A stretch of DNA of 37,999 nucleotides from Sulfurimonas sp. hsl 1-7 (GTDB lineage: Bacteria > Campylobacterota > Campylobacteria > Campylobacterales > Sulfurimonadaceae): contig NZ_JAUIRR010000007.1 in NCBI RefSeq assembly GCF_030577135.1, positions 8,883 through 46,881 of the forward strand, in the 5' to 3' direction. This document shows, in pieces, positions 15,079 to 19,944 of this stretch. Position numbers and translations under genes: made by a program. Every line of letters starts with the position of its first letter. Position 1 is the stretch's first letter. The notes beneath the pieces were generated by a model, which saw nothing but the letters and a program-made list of their open reading frames with translations, did no database searches and was not told the DNA's origin.

Positions 15079-15693
15079 ATGGATTTCTTATTTAATATAA
15101 ATATACAGTTTTATATCGCTGCATACTTAGTCGGTGGTATCCCTTTTGGTTTGCTGCTAGCCAAAGCATTTGCAGGTGTTGATGTAAAATCAGCAGGAAG
15201 TAAAAGTATTGGAGCTACGAATGTTTTACGTGTTGTAAAGGAAACAAATCCTTCACTGGCAAAAAAACTTGGTGCTGCTACTTTAGCACTTGACGCACTT
15301 AAAGGGGTAGCTGTTTTAGCAGTTGGATATTTTGCAGGTGTAAGTGAAGCAACAATGTGGGCTATAGCAGTTCTGGCTGTAATCGGGCACTGTTTTTCAC
15401 CTTATTTGGGACTTGAAGGCGGTAAAGGGATCGCAACAGGTATGGGTGTAATGATGTTTATGCTTCCTATTGAAACTGCAATCGCTTTAGTGGTATGGAT
15501 TGTTATGGCAAAAACTGTACGCATCTCGTCTATCTCATCTTTAACAGGTGTTTTAGCGATGTTAATTTCAAGTTTCTTTATACATCCGGATATTGCTCAT
15601 GCACCTGTTGTATTTATCGTATTTATTCTGTTTTACAAACATATTCCAAATATTGTTCGCCTGCTTAAAGGTGAAGAGAAACGGGTAATCTAA
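15079..15693 (+). CDS. plsY: Acyl-phosphate:glycerol-3-phosphate acyltransferase
   Basis: PlsY makes lysophosphatidic acid from acyl-phosphate and glycerol-3-phosphate at the inner membrane. The 204-residue protein has five or so membrane segments and the three family motifs: GGIPFGLLLAK with SAGSKSIGATNVLR, GHCFSPYLGLEGGKGIATGMG, and HIPNIVRLLKGEE at the end. It is followed by folB after one base. The plsY-folB pair next to the HsrA/CosR-type regulator matches the order I recall in Campylobacter. Confidence 0.95.
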   Translation: MDFLFNINIQFYIAAYLVGGIPFGLLLAKAFAGVDVKSAGSKSIGATNVLRVVKETNPSLAKKLGAATLALDALKGVAVLAVGYFAGVSEATMWAIAVLAVIGHCFSPYLGLEGGKGIATGMGVMMFMLPIETAIALVVWIVMAKTVRISSISSLTGVLAMLISSFFIHPDIAHAPVVFIVFILFYKHIPNIVRLLKGEEKRVI

Positions 15694-15694
15694 A

Positions 15695-16027
15695 TTGAAG
15701 ATCTATGTTGAGGATTTAAGATTCCAATGTATCATAGGGATCTTGGATTTTGAAAGAGTAACTCCACAGGACGTTATCATCAATCTCGAACTTGAATACG
15801 ATTTTCAAGAGGAGTTTATCAACTACGCAGATCTTGCTTCAGAAATTAAAAATACTATGATAAATGAAAAATTTCTTCTTTTAGAAGATGCTATTGAGAA
15901 AATTTCAAAAAATTTACAAGAAAATTTTTCAAAAATAGATACTCTTAAACTAAAAATCACAAAACCCTCTATTTTACCCGACTGCAGGGTAAGTGTAGAG
16001 GATAGTTTCCATTTTAATCTTAAATAA
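15695..16027 (+). CDS. folB: Dihydroneopterin aldolase
   Basis: FolB cleaves dihydroneopterin to 6-hydroxymethyl-dihydropterin in folate synthesis. The 110-residue product begins KIYVEDLRFQCIIGILDFERVTPQDVIINLELEYDF, which aligns with the family N-terminus, and ends with the strand DTLKLKITKPSILPDCRVSVEDSF. The start has to be the TTG at 15695: it is one base after the plsY stop, and the conserved motif begins right there with no ATG upstream. Translation is probably coupled to plsY. Confidence 0.88.
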   Translation: MKIYVEDLRFQCIIGILDFERVTPQDVIINLELEYDFQEEFINYADLASEIKNTMINEKFLLLEDAIEKISKNLQENFSKIDTLKLKITKPSILPDCRVSVEDSFHFNLK

Positions 16028-16085
16028 AACTTCATTTTTTTTTAAAAAAAATTGAAAAAAACTTTAAAGTTACCTAAAATTATGC

Positions 16086-16125: not shown

Positions 16126-16800
16126 ATGCGTATTCTTATTATAGAAGATGAAGTAACATTAAATAAGATGCTTGCTGAGGGACTAAAAGAATTTGGTTAC
16201 CAAAGTGATGTTGTTGAAACTTTAAAAGATGGTGAATACTACCTAGACATCCGTAACTACGATTTAGTTCTTATGGACTGGATGCTCCCGGATGGTAACT
16301 CTGTAGATATCATTGGTGATATCAAAGCAAATACACCAAAAACAGTTGTTGTTGTTCTCTCTGCTAGAGATGATAACGAAAGTGAAATCGAAGCACTTCG
16401 TGCCGGTGCTGATGACTATATCAGAAAACCATTTGATTTTGAAGTATTAATTGCTCGTCTAGAAGCAAGACTTCGTTTTGGTGGAAGCAATATCATCGAA
16501 ATTGAAGACTTAACAATTAATCCTGAAGAGGAAAAAATCACTTACAAAGAGACTGAGATTGAATTAAAAGGGAAACCTTTTGAAGTTCTTACTCACCTTG
16601 CACGTCACCGTGATCAAATCGTGTCTAAAGAGCAACTTTTAGATGCTATCTGGGAAGAGCCGGAACTTGTAACTCCAAATGTAATTGAAGTTGCGATCAA
16701 TCAAATCCGTCAAAAGATGGATAAACCTTTAAGTATTACTACGATAGAAACTGTTCGCCGCCGCGGATACCGTTTCTGTTTTCCAAAAGAAGTAAGCTAA
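16126..16800 (+). CDS. hsrA: HsrA/CosR-type OmpR-family response regulator with intact phospho-site
   Basis: The 224-residue protein is a receiver domain plus an OmpR-type winged helix. The C-terminal half (LKGKPFEVLTHLARHRDQIV, EQLLDAIWEEPELVTPNVIE and RQKMDKPL) is nearly the same as in Helicobacter HP1043 (HsrA) as I recall it, an essential regulator of metabolism and stress. In that protein and in Campylobacter CosR the receiver is atypical and lacks a normal phospho-acceptor. Here the pocket is complete: Glu7/Asp8, Asp51 in LVLMDWMLPDG, Ser79 and Lys101 in IRKPFDF. A histidine kinase gene follows 42 bases later. It is therefore probably a phosphorylation-controlled form. Confidence 0.92.
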   Translation: MRILIIEDEVTLNKMLAEGLKEFGYQSDVVETLKDGEYYLDIRNYDLVLMDWMLPDGNSVDIIGDIKANTPKTVVVVLSARDDNESEIEALRAGADDYIRKPFDFEVLIARLEARLRFGGSNIIEIEDLTINPEEEKITYKETEIELKGKPFEVLTHLARHRDQIVSKEQLLDAIWEEPELVTPNVIEVAINQIRQKMDKPLSITTIETVRRRGYRFCFPKEVS

Positions 16801-16810
16801 ATAATGGTAT

Positions 16811-16835
16811 AATCTCCTAAAAATCTTAGGGGATT
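16811..16835 (+). promoter_or_regulatory. Hairpin covering the kinase ribosome-binding site
   Basis: AATCTCCTAA (16811-16820) pairs with TTAGGGGATT (16826-16835) around a five-base loop, giving 10 base pairs with one G-T pair. The AGGGG at 16828-16832 is the only good ribosome site before the kinase ATG at 16843 and is held in the stem by CTCCT. No T-run follows, so it is not an intrinsic terminator. A TATAAT at 16808-16813 overlaps the 5' arm. Confidence 0.55.
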
Positions 16836-16842
16836 ATCGCAC

Positions 16843-18138
16843 ATGTCACGACAACAGAGTATAAGAAAGAACTTCTTAGTTCAACTGTTAATCTCCTCTG
16901 CTTCACTCATTTTAATATTTTCCTCACTATTATACTTTTATATCGAAAAATCTATCTATGATGAAAAAAGAGACGAACTTATCCATTATGCACAGAACAT
17001 CTCTAACTACAAAGCAGTGTATGATTTTGGTGAACTTCCCGACAACTTTTTATCTTTAAATATTGAAGTTATATCTCTTATCTCTCCGACCGATCAGATA
17101 GATGTTTATGAAAAAACTTCAGGCGATAAGACCTTTTTAACACTAATCTACCCTTTTGATACAAAACAAAATGTTTATCTCAAGCTTGTCAAAGATGTAT
17201 CACCGACAAAAAAGCTTCTTAAAAAGATTGTCAACTATATCTTCATAATCAATATAGCGGGCTTTTTACTTGTAATCTTATATGCTATCGCGCTTTCAAA
17301 AATGTTGGCTTCTCCTATTAAAAAATTGAGTCAAGATCTTGCAAATATGAATGAACACCTTATGAAGCCTATTCAAATGGATGAAATTCCACAAGAGTTT
17401 GCACCATTAGCAGGTACGATCAACCATCTTATTGCAAGGATTCAAAACTTTGTAAAGTACCAAAAAGAGCTCTTTATCGGAACTGCTCATGAATTAAAAA
17501 CTCCCCTTGCAGTTATCAAGCTCAAAAACCAGGTAACGTTAATTAAAAAACGCTCTGCCGAGGAGTATATAGAGGCTATTAATACTACCAATAAAACGAT
17601 TGATGAGATGAATGTGATTGTATCAAATATCTTAAATATCGGTCGTCAGGAGGGTGCACAGCTTGATCAGCCTCAAGAAGTAGATGTGATTGAGCTTCTC
17701 AAACAAAAGGCAAACGATTTTCAACTTTTAGCCGAGAATGAGGGGAAAACTTTAGAGATCAGTTTTGCTCCTGATGTATTTATGGCGACAATTCAAGTGG
17801 GACTGCTCAACCAGATCGTTCAAAACTTTTTACAAAATGCTTTAAAGTTCACGCCACAAGAGAAAAAAGTTACGTTGAGAAGCTCTCAAGATGATTTTGG
17901 ACTCTTAATCGAAGTTATCGATGAAGGGTGTGGAATTGATGAGAGTGTCGACCTTTTTGCGCCGTTTAAAAGACAGGGAAATAAAAGTGGTGTAGGTCTT
18001 GGTCTCTTTTTAGCAAAAAGCGCTGCTGATGCTTTAGGAGCTAAGATAAAACTGGAAAATAGAGATGATGGTATTGACGGAACAAAAGCTACATTACAAC
18101 TCAATTCTCAATTATCTTGTATAATTCCTCAAAAATAG
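16843..18138 (+). CDS. Membrane sensor histidine kinase paired with the HsrA-like regulator
   Basis: The 431-residue protein has membrane segments at about 13-34 and 131-152 with a roughly 95-residue outer sensor region between them. A HAMP-like linker and a HisKA helix with the phospho-acceptor His216 (TAHELKTPLAV) follow. The ATPase domain has the N box QNFLQNALKF (Asn328, Asn332), G1 DEGCGID and G2 GVGLGLFLAK, so all catalytic elements are present. It comes directly after the HsrA-like gene in the same direction and is its likely partner. The sensor region has no recognised domain and no cysteines. Its ribosome site is sequestered in a hairpin. Confidence 0.93.
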   Translation: MSRQQSIRKNFLVQLLISSASLILIFSSLLYFYIEKSIYDEKRDELIHYAQNISNYKAVYDFGELPDNFLSLNIEVISLISPTDQIDVYEKTSGDKTFLTLIYPFDTKQNVYLKLVKDVSPTKKLLKKIVNYIFIINIAGFLLVILYAIALSKMLASPIKKLSQDLANMNEHLMKPIQMDEIPQEFAPLAGTINHLIARIQNFVKYQKELFIGTAHELKTPLAVIKLKNQVTLIKKRSAEEYIEAINTTNKTIDEMNVIVSNILNIGRQEGAQLDQPQEVDVIELLKQKANDFQLLAENEGKTLEISFAPDVFMATIQVGLLNQIVQNFLQNALKFTPQEKKVTLRSSQDDFGLLIEVIDEGCGIDESVDLFAPFKRQGNKSGVGLGLFLAKSAADALGAKIKLENRDDGIDGTKATLQLNSQLSCIIPQK

Positions 18139-18220
18139 ATCGCTTTCAAATTTACTAAAGGTTTATTTTGTTATAAATCGGACACGTAAAACAAACTAAT
18201 ATACTATAAGGTTTTTGAAT

Positions 18221-18472
18221 ATGGCATTATTAATTAATGATGAATGTATTGCATGTGATGCTTGTCGTGAAGAGTGTCCAACAATAGCTATAGAAGAAGG
18301 TGATCCTATATACTTTATAGACCCAGATAGATGTACTGAATGTGTTGGTGTATATGATGAACCAGCATGTATCTCTGTATGTCCTGTTGATTGTATCGTT
18401 CCGGATCCGGATAATGTTGAAACAATTGCTGAATTAAAATTCAAATATAAAAACTTAGACTTAGAAGAGTAG
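18221..18472 (+). CDS. 2[4Fe-4S] ferredoxin, Allochromatium/YfhL type
   Basis: The 83-residue protein has a first cluster motif CIACDACREECP and a second with the longer loop, CTECVGVYDEPACISVCPVDC, followed by the C-terminal helix EFKYKNL-like tail. The eight-residue insert between the second and third Cys of the second motif marks the Alvin-type ferredoxins with low-potential clusters. I choose the ATG at 18221 because TAAGG ends nine bases before it; the in-frame TTG at 18215 is too close. A ferredoxin gene close to the HsrA/CosR gene is what I recall in Campylobacter, where no kinase lies between them. Confidence 0.93.
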   Translation: MALLINDECIACDACREECPTIAIEEGDPIYFIDPDRCTECVGVYDEPACISVCPVDCIVPDPDNVETIAELKFKYKNLDLEE

Positions 18473-18477
18473 TCAAT

Positions 18478-19944
18478 TTGGCAAAGCGCGTCTCAGTGAT
18501 AGATATCGGTTCTAACTCGGTTAGAATGGTTATCTATGAAAAAACCTCACGCTTTGCGTTCCACCTGTTACACGAAGAGAAATCTAAAGTTAGAATATCG
18601 GAAAATGCATATAAGCATGATGGAGTGCTTCAAGAGACTCCTATGCAAAGAACATTTGATGCACTTGAAAACTTTTTAAGGATCTCAGATTCTTTTAAAA
18701 CAAAGAAAGTGTTATGTGTAGCTACTTCTGCACTTCGTGATGCTCCCAATAAACAAGAATTCATTCAAAAAGTAAGAACAAAACTAAAACTCAATATTAA
18801 AATAATCTCAGGTGAAAAAGAAGCTTATTTCGGTGCAATCGCATGCGCAAATCTTTTACCCCAGCAACATAATGCCATGAGTATAGATATTGGTGGTGGT
18901 TCTACAGAGATTGCTTTTATAGATGCACACAATGTCTCTCATACCCAATCGTTAAAACTTGGAACTGTACGCCTTAAAGAGTTGTTTTTTGATACTAACG
19001 ATATAGATGGTGCAAAAGAATTTATACAAGCAGAGCTTGATAAAATTCCAACAAAAGAGATATCTAGTTTAGTTGGTATCGGTGGAACATTTAGAGCAAT
19101 CTCTTCAGCTATTCAAAAATCAAAAGAGTATCCGCTTAATAAACTCCATGCATTTGCATATGAACAACCCATCTTTGTAGAGTATATCAATAAGATTTTG
19201 GATGCAGATGAGATAGAACTCGGTGAACTCTTTATTAAGTCAAACAGATTTGATGTAATAAAACCTGGTGCACTTATCTTAAAAATGCTTCTAGAAAAGT
19301 TTGCTATTACAGACATCATCACTAGTGGTGTAGGTGTAAGAGAAGGTGTTTACTTATCCGATCTGCTTCGTTCATCTAAACATCAATTTCCTGCGAACTA
19401 TAACACTTCTGTAAGATATATACTCGATGCACACTTAAGCGATAAAGAGTTTTCAAACAATCTTACTAAGGTTTCAAAACAGCTCTTTGATCTTACACAT
19501 ACGTTTTTCAATATAGACAAAGTATATCGAGAAAGACTCTCAATTGCAGCAAAGTTATATCCTACGGGAAGTAGTATCCATTTTTATTCACAAAATAAAC
19601 ATAGTTATTACATTGCCCAAACAGCATTGGAATACGGCTTTACACATCAGGATATTACCCTTATCTCAACACTGATGAAATATGCGAGAAATAAACTCCC
19701 TGCAAAATCTCATCTTGAAAAATATCAAGAGCTTTTACCTAATGAAACAACTGTAAATGCATTAAGCTTTCTTCTGTCTATGAGTATTATTCTTCTCAGT
19801 CACAGACCTAGGAACATAGACTTTGAGCTTGCATTTAATGATGGTGTATTGGAAGTAAAAAGCAGTAGTAATCTATATCTAGTAAAAGATAGTGTAGAGA
19901 AACTACAATGTTTAAAAGATTTTAGAGTTATTTTTAACTCTTAA
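18478..19944 (+). CDS. Ppx/GppA-type exopolyphosphatase / pppGpp phosphohydrolase
   Basis: The 488-residue product belongs to the ASKHA-fold Ppx/GppA family. It has the phosphate loops VIDIGSNSVRMVIYE near the start and SIDIGGGSTEIAFI near residue 135, plus ISGEKEAYFGAIA and LVGIGGTFRAI. A C-terminal HD-like helical region follows. Whether polyphosphate or pppGpp is preferred cannot be told from sequence. The TTG start at 18478 is six bases after the ferredoxin stop and is needed for the conserved first strand. Its last four bases overlap the bamA end on the other strand. Confidence 0.92.
   Translation: MAKRVSVIDIGSNSVRMVIYEKTSRFAFHLLHEEKSKVRISENAYKHDGVLQETPMQRTFDALENFLRISDSFKTKKVLCVATSALRDAPNKQEFIQKVRTKLKLNIKIISGEKEAYFGAIACANLLPQQHNAMSIDIGGGSTEIAFIDAHNVSHTQSLKLGTVRLKELFFDTNDIDGAKEFIQAELDKIPTKEISSLVGIGGTFRAISSAIQKSKEYPLNKLHAFAYEQPIFVEYINKILDADEIELGELFIKSNRFDVIKPGALILKMLLEKFAITDIITSGVGVREGVYLSDLLRSSKHQFPANYNTSVRYILDAHLSDKEFSNNLTKVSKQLFDLTHTFFNIDKVYRERLSIAAKLYPTGSSIHFYSQNKHSYYIAQTALEYGFTHQDITLISTLMKYARNKLPAKSHLEKYQELLPNETTVNALSFLLSMSIILLSHRPRNIDFELAFNDGVLEVKSSSNLYLVKDSVEKLQCLKDFRVIFNS

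Follow-up and report, generated by a model that had tools for sequence, protein, structure and literature searches.

The response regulator CosR and the histidine kinase CosS were described as a pair by Hwang et al. (2014), who named cosS, found that it follows cosR in non-thermotolerant Campylobacter, and reported homologs from Wolinella, Arcobacter butzleri, Sulfurospirillum and H. pullorum (PMC3938529). In that report, C. fetus CosS phosphorylates CosR, cosR is probably essential in C. fetus, and a cosS knockout grows like the wild type and shows only slightly reduced aerotolerance. C. fetus CosR is further reported to bind the targets of C. jejuni CosR very weakly, and C. jejuni CosR, even when it carries N51D, is not phosphorylated by C. 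fetus CosS (PMC3938529). It was already remarked there that species without cosS miss D51, and an earlier report recorded D51 in Wolinella and Arcobacter, and K8 together with a deletion in HP1043 (Hwang 2011; PMC3139631). Because the CosR-CosS pair, the link between D51 and the kinase, and phosphotransfer were all published by 2014, the pair examined here is a further member of a described system rather than a new one. What is added here is a survey of the phylum, evidence that the kinase is lost before the phospho-site, and a cosR promoter module. We found no phylum-wide CosS survey by title or by the start of the abstract; as our coverage of the literature was partial, this is weak evidence of absence.

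We analyzed a 37,999-nucleotide stretch of the Sulfurimonas sp. hsl 1-7 genome (2.28 Mb in 15 contigs), which we refer to as the window. It contains the following genes and sites:

15079–15693, + strand: plsY, conserved upstream neighbour (TIGR00023 over cut-off)
15695–16027, + strand: folB-type gene, conserved upstream neighbour (PF02152 FolB and TIGR00526 over cut-off; TIGR00525 folB below)
16126–16800, + strand: cosR, ortholog of HP1043/HsrA, OmpR/PhoB-type with an intact acidic pocket (structure matches, Pfam, residue read)
16276–16278, + strand: Asp51 codon, predicted phosphoacceptor (counted along the ORF; D51 in all 85 CosS genomes read)
16843–18138, + strand: cosS, membrane histidine kinase with HisKA and HATPase_c (ORF, Pfam, motifs, profile)
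16933–17208, + strand: predicted periplasmic sensor segment of CosS, residues 31–122, its least conserved part (AlphaFold2 model, identity)
17488–17490, + strand: His216 codon, predicted phosphodonor (H-box HELKTPL at 216; invariant in 27 aligned CosS)
18215–18472, + strand: YfhL-type 2x[4Fe-4S] ferredoxin, conserved downstream neighbour (NF033683 over cut-off)
18478–19944, + strand: gene that we take to be ppx/gppA-like, conserved downstream neighbour (ORF; same position in loci of families f1, f5, f6, f7 and f10–f13)

The cosR ORF begins with ATG and encodes 224 amino acids, and cosS starts 42 nt downstream on the same strand. Response_reg and Trans_reg_C each score over their curated Pfam cut-offs, giving the protein an OmpR/PhoB architecture, and CosR is a full-length ortholog within the CosR/HsrA family with a highly conserved DNA-binding half. 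Its best matches among solved structures, 8uvx and 8uuz (titled DNA-binding response regulator; E about 1e-107), are followed by 2hqr (E 2e-87); we take 2hqr to be HP1043, and 8uvx and 8uuz to be C. jejuni CosR, the subject of PMC10936212. The acidic pocket is complete, with E7, D8, D51, S79 and K101 exactly where a first-pass annotation of this DNA had placed them in a CosR/HP1043(HsrA)-type regulator. With all pocket residues kept, CosR does not have the atypical receiver of HP1043, which has a degenerate pocket and no phosphoacceptor Asp. The phospho-site reads DWMLPDG in all of the 80 nearest named loci, which, where a genus is given, are Sulfurimonas throughout except for one Sulfuricurvum; in 75/80 a CosS match above 300 bits lies directly behind the regulator.

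Three described systems lie close to this locus. The CosR-CosS pair of C. fetus likewise has the kinase gene directly downstream, D51 and similar neighbours, and its phosphotransfer has been reported (PMC3938529), but it belongs to a different family: the six CosS sequences of family f5 in alignment A1 are 38–44% identical to window CosS. H. pylori HP1043/HsrA is an orthologous regulator; in genus g21, the DNA-binding half averages 87% identity to the window and the half-sites and -10 element are arranged as in the window. HP1043 has K8, lacks the residues around 51–54 and has no kinase, whereas window CosR has D8, D51 and CosS; genome G024 carries this HP1043 signature (E7 K8 N9 and a deletion at 51). 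C. jejuni CosR (Cj0355c) is also orthologous, and genus g17 shares the neighbourhood plsY-folB-cosR-fdx with the window but, unlike it, has N or S at position 51 and no CosS.

The first-pass annotation had also read a complete histidine kinase directly after the regulator, and this reading held. The cosS ORF (431 amino acids, ATG start) carries HisKA and HATPase_c, each over its curated Pfam cut-off, and the kinase motifs: the H-box HELKTPL with H216, the N-box NFLQNALK at 328, and the two G-boxes DEGCG at 360 and GVGLGL at 383. Two hydrophobic, membrane-like stretches lie at about residues 10–35 and 125–160. In the AlphaFold2 model (mean pLDDT 69.5, pTM 0.39), the sensor is a small sheet, residues 72–118, between two long helices. 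Mean identity in the CosS alignment is 23% for the periplasmic part versus 67% for the DHp region; because the periplasmic part is the least conserved, its ligand or its tuning may differ by lineage. The best 50 of 630 Foldseek matches to the model were all to the kinase core. CosS shares this cytoplasmic core fold, and profile similarity, with kinases of the CpxA/HprS/CusS type, but it does not reach the curated cut-off for any of the 25 NCBIfam families among the matches listed, and its sensor differs from theirs as far as known. Against a CosS profile built on 27 aligned sequences, the window kinase scored 602 bits, a value that is not independent because its own sequence is part of the profile; the highest non-CosS match in a looser search reached 147.7 bits, and the weakest match counted as CosS had an E of 7e-82. 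By these scores the window kinase groups with other CosS and not with other kinases. Elsewhere, three of the 78 CosS adjacent to cosR (L206 and L219 in f5 g23, L131 in f9 g55) have Asp replaced by N in the G1 box next to a cosR that keeps D51, and these kinases may be catalytically weak. The CosS of G010 and G038 (L194 and L196; f4 g10) sit on a very long branch (1.96) with motifs intact.

By its gene order, plsY-folB-cosR-(cosS)-fdx-ppx, the window locus fits the family. This order is not kept in f4 and was not seen in f9; plsY occupies the same position in loci of f1, f5, f6, f7, f8 and f10–f14. The first-pass annotation had given Campylobacter the same neighbours without the kinase. That is correct for the thermotolerant type (g17, with N or S at 51 as published for thermotolerant species), in which five of six loci read plsY-folB-cosR-fdx-ppx without a kinase and the sixth reads cosR-ppx, and for the further genus g57. 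It fails for the rest: six of the seven other f5 genera have CosS, g57 alone being without it, and cosS is reported in non-thermotolerant species (PMC3938529).

To place the pair among its relatives, we used 397 genomes from 68 genera, all from the window's own order and with no outgroup. We found CosR in 397/397 genomes and 68/68 genera (E up to 1e-40) and CosS in 247/397 genomes and 50/68 genera (E up to 1e-60). The 18 genera without CosS are all four of f7, g52 (f6), g17 and g57 (f5), and eleven of f4; genome G039 (g10, f4) is also without it. An adjacency tally had suggested G138 and G307 (f1 g7) and G353 (f8) as kinase losses, but the genome search found a displaced CosS and we rejected them. 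Such displacement occurs in two of nine f1 g7 genomes: in G138 (L176), a 1034-amino-acid ORF on the opposite strand separates cosR from CosS, and in G307 the two lie on different contigs. In G215, cosR and the start of cosS lie at a contig end, and the remainder of a CosS lies on another contig.

We read the pocket residues in 163 genomes of 67 genera, leaving out second regulator copies (L151, L152, L162, L163, L165 and L166) and L329, in which cosR is in two pieces and which duplicates G178. D51 was present in 85/85 genomes with CosS and in 25/78 without, and the full pocket in 85/85 and 17/78, a contrast that is clumped by descent, so that genomes are not independent observations. In 78 of the 85 CosS genomes, a CosS match above 300 bits lies directly behind cosR. 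In the CosS-less genomes without D51, position 51 is occupied by S, N, G, A, E, K or H, or is a gap. The two halves of the protein differ in how far they have diverged from the window: mean receiver identity is 40–57% in most orphan groups, 68% in g57, 74% in g36 and 64–93% in the CosS families, and the DNA-binding half of the orphans stays at 77–90% (69% in f7). Two oddities among the orphans deserve mention. In f7, residue 8 of CosR (L153, L155–L161) is K or R in 8/8, a change like the K8 of HP1043 but in an independent lineage. In the g17 genome G178 (L164/L329), the cosR frame is broken into two pieces, which is odd for an essential gene and possibly an assembly error.

The full pocket persists without CosS in g57 (3/3), g36 (3/3) and g37 (11/11). 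One reading of these orphans is that their input was swapped for another kinase or acetyl phosphate, rather than lost. All 17 genomes keep D51 and the pocket, which drift alone is not expected to favour for long. Against a swap, no kinase matching the CosS profile lies next to cosR in six such loci, and when 11 of the 17 genomes were searched more loosely (E up to 1e-25), covering the CosS family only, the best scores in the three genera were 134, 93 and 98 bits, compared with 389–602 bits for CosS in that search; in addition, the g37 receiver has drifted to 56% identity to the window. We therefore regard a swapped input as possible but doubtful.

We next placed these states on an RpoB tree of 79 genomes (one of 80, G370, gave no rpoB match), with the root set by hand at f7. 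The pocket is intact in 42/42 CosS-plus and 5/37 CosS-minus genomes of this tree, and the least number of state changes is 7 for the kinase, 5 for D51 and 6 for the pocket. The seven kinase changes fit one each in f7, g52, g57, g17, g36, the large f4 clade and G039. A strict independent-pairs sign test on supported branches, with six pairs, gave p of 0.06–0.125 for the pocket and 0.125–0.25 for D51, not significant with so few pairs.

The states themselves are informative about order. None of the 85 CosS genomes has lost D51, and g57 and g36 keep the pocket without CosS; these data suggest that the kinase was lost first and the phospho-site later, an order that we infer to hold as a general rule. 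The position of g37 is less simple. This genus sits within the large f4 clade, and the least D51 count of five, unweighted, implies a loss at the base of f4 and a regain in g37. We prefer that D51 survived in g37 and was replaced by differing residues in the sister genera; since this retention is a preference, the firm cases of a kinase gone and a pocket kept are g57 and g36 alone. The reverse order, in which D51 was lost before or together with the kinase and the loss uncoupled the pair so that the kinase became useless, would accord with the absence of D51 from 28 of the 37 CosS-minus genomes in the RpoB tree, and unweighted parsimony makes g37 a regain and not an intermediate. Against it, 0/85 CosS genomes lack D51, and CosS-less g57 and g36 (and g37) have a full pocket. 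In G013 (L091, f9), moreover, a cosS split by a stop adjoins an intact cosR; this kinase may be decaying, or the stop may be an error of sequencing. We consider the reverse order very improbable.

The first-pass annotation had proposed that the two-component form is ancestral. On the RpoB tree, the kinase-free regulators nest among lineages with the pair, f7 possibly excepted, and a CosS tree (39 genomes, quick method, 16/36 inner branches weak) recovers f1, f4, f6, f8, f9 and f10, and the f5 sequences except g65, which stands apart on RpoB too. Because the CosS tree mostly keeps families together, regain of the kinase by transfer is not indicated. The proposal thus stands for these lineages but does not extend to the deepest branch, f7: with f7 lacking CosS and no outgroup, a gain of the kinase after f7 and a loss within f7 cost the same. 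If the kinase was gained after f7 split off, the orphan state would be ancestral and the pair derived. Consistent with such a gain, CosS is absent from the locus in 8/8 f7 genomes though plsY-folB-cosR-fdx-ppx is unchanged, and is found in 0/4 f7 genera; f7 also lies outside all others on RpoB, where the root was placed by hand. The f7 receivers argue otherwise: they have D51, S79 and K101 in 8/8, with K or R at 8, and resemble a decayed phospho-receiver. Moreover, CosS is present at the locus in three of four genomes of f8, which branches next. A late gain is in our view unlikely.

It had also been suggested that the kinase was lost in host-associated lineages. We take f7 to be the vent-dwelling Nautiliaceae (G044 presumably being Nautilia profundicola) and g52 of f6 to be likely Sulfurovum, a name inferred, with G063 of the same family presumably Nitratifractor salsuginis; among other genomes, we take G127 to be Arcobacter nitrofigilis and G172 to be Wolinella succinogenes. 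On these inferred names, both f7 and g52 are probably free-living, yet neither has CosS. Conversely, animal-associated non-thermotolerant Campylobacter are reported to keep CosS (PMC3938529). Loss of the kinase therefore does not follow host association as a rule, and the suggestion is only partly right.

The region upstream of cosR contains a second set of features:

16041–16079, + strand: four CosR/HP1043-like candidate half-sites, 11 bp apart, spaced as in the published HP1043 site
16041–16046, + strand: half-site TTTAAA
16052–16057, + strand: half-site TTGAAA
16063–16068, + strand: half-site TTTAAA
16074–16079, + strand: half-site CTAAAA
16081–16091, + strand: extended -10-like element TATGCTATTAT of the cosR promoter (promoter comparison)

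HP1043 is reported to bind TTTAAG-N5-TTTAAG with a centre spacing of 11 bp (PMC5253667; PMC8345958) and to regulate its own expression (PMC9449129). An HP1043-type site architecture is thus seen at the cosR promoter, and CosR is predicted to bind there. Outside this promoter the window offered little: a general promoter scan was not above chance (14 found, 19.1 expected), and the bare motif TTTAAG-N5-TTTAAG was not enriched (11 found, 15.8 expected), so we make no claim about a regulon.

Across the upstream regions of 126 cosR genes, a related and non-independent set, a three-half-site score peaked at a step of 11 (13.67, versus 11.75 in shuffles), with 12.94 and 12.77 at steps 10 and 12. We found that a strict pattern of two half-sites and the extended -10 has a single match in the window's own 2.28-Mb genome, the cosR promoter, even when one mismatch is allowed. 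The strict pattern gave 26 matches in 26/101 genomes, one in each, and a reversed control gave none. Coordinates place 18 of these immediately before cosR, and the position of the G036 match fits its CosS. The other seven are from g21 genomes, six identical in letters to the verified G024 site and one similar. The strict pattern is absent from 75/101 genomes, four of them within the window's own family.

Among genomes with an extended -10, a score of at least 13.5, a cut-off picked after the scores had been seen, was reached by 42/60 CosS genomes, 12/49 orphans (seven in g17) and 0/33 other promoters; some CosS families scored low (f6 1/6, f8 0/2, f9 3/11, f11 0/1). The background set had held 38 promoters, four of them at 13.5 or above, the top two being cosR with another start; 33 remained after reclassification, with a maximum of 10.5 for a promoter from L119 that still begins like a cosR. 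The array is thus common to Sulfurimonas and H. pylori-type genomes, and weak or absent in many others, orphan or not.

An 11-bp TTTAA array might instead be nothing more than the A/T periodicity that Campylobacter promoters have in place of a -35 box, and not a CosR site. Periodic A/T promoters have been described for C. jejuni, and the scores at steps 10 and 12 are also raised, if less than at 11. The other extended -10 promoters of the fetched loci are hard to reconcile with a general signal of this kind, as 0/33 reach 13.5; a sharp phase is seen at cosR and a flat one elsewhere, and the strict pattern occurs once per matched genome, directly before cosR in 18 of 26 checked by coordinates. 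We judge the periodic signal decidedly unlikely to be the whole of the array. Its architecture suggests autoregulation by CosR, which would have outlived the kinase in H. pylori-type genomes.

Together, these results make it highly probable, in our assessment, that the locus is the Sulfurimonas CosR-CosS system, whose dispensable kinase was lost about six or seven times, the pocket drifting afterwards. In the mechanism we propose, CosS would be membrane-bound, with a small, fast-evolving periplasmic sensor; judging from its motifs, from orthology and from the C. fetus experiment, it would autophosphorylate on His216 and hand the phosphate to Asp51 of CosR. CosR would bind pairs of TTTAA-type half-sites 11 bp apart, its own promoter array included, and tune housekeeping and redox genes. 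Its vital work in Sulfurimonas would be free of phosphate, and, if the vital function needs none, CosS would be a dispensable input. In C. fetus, cosR but not cosS seems to be essential, which would account for repeated loss of the kinase; for Sulfurimonas we infer the same. Among the sampled lineages, about six or seven such losses would each have been followed by drift of the phospho-pocket (D51 to N, S, G, A, E, K or H, or deleted), the DNA-binding half remaining nearly fixed. The slight phenotype of the C. fetus cosS mutant and the very weak cross-binding of its CosR indicate that output and signal may differ by lineage.

A stronger proposition is that the vital function of CosR was never phosphate-dependent, and that an add-on kinase was shed six or seven times, always before the site decayed, with the DNA-binding half and, in several lineages, a self-binding promoter module locked; on this we are evenly divided. 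If true, these genomes would form a natural series toward an orphan master regulator: the pair; the kinase gone and the pocket intact; the pocket gone; and, in f8, both forms. In H. pylori and C. jejuni, CosR/HsrA is essential and has been put forward as a drug target. Read across the phylum, the series suggests which lineages had a phosphate input, which ones lost it and in what order. What phosphate adds to CosR could be asked directly in tractable relatives that have both genes (Sulfurimonas, Wolinella) and in the pocket-intact orphans.

Some genomes carry additional copies of the regulator. All four f8 genomes of the sample have CosR and CosS and, in addition, a degenerate further copy of CosR whose flanks contain no kinase (L151, L152, L162 and L163; also L337, L338, L339 and L343), so that both forms of CosR occur within one genome. 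These second copies form one clade and are 77–84% identical to the window in the DNA-binding half and 28–37% in the receiver; E7 and K101 are lost in 4/4 and D8 in 3/4, and D51 is kept. Diverged CosR-like extra copies (L340, L341, L342 and L344) also occur in f11 (G254, G052), f15 (G215, with one internal stop) and f9 (G139). They are 39–51% identical to the window protein, have no kinase in the fetched flanks, and lie on long branches where their placement is unsure.
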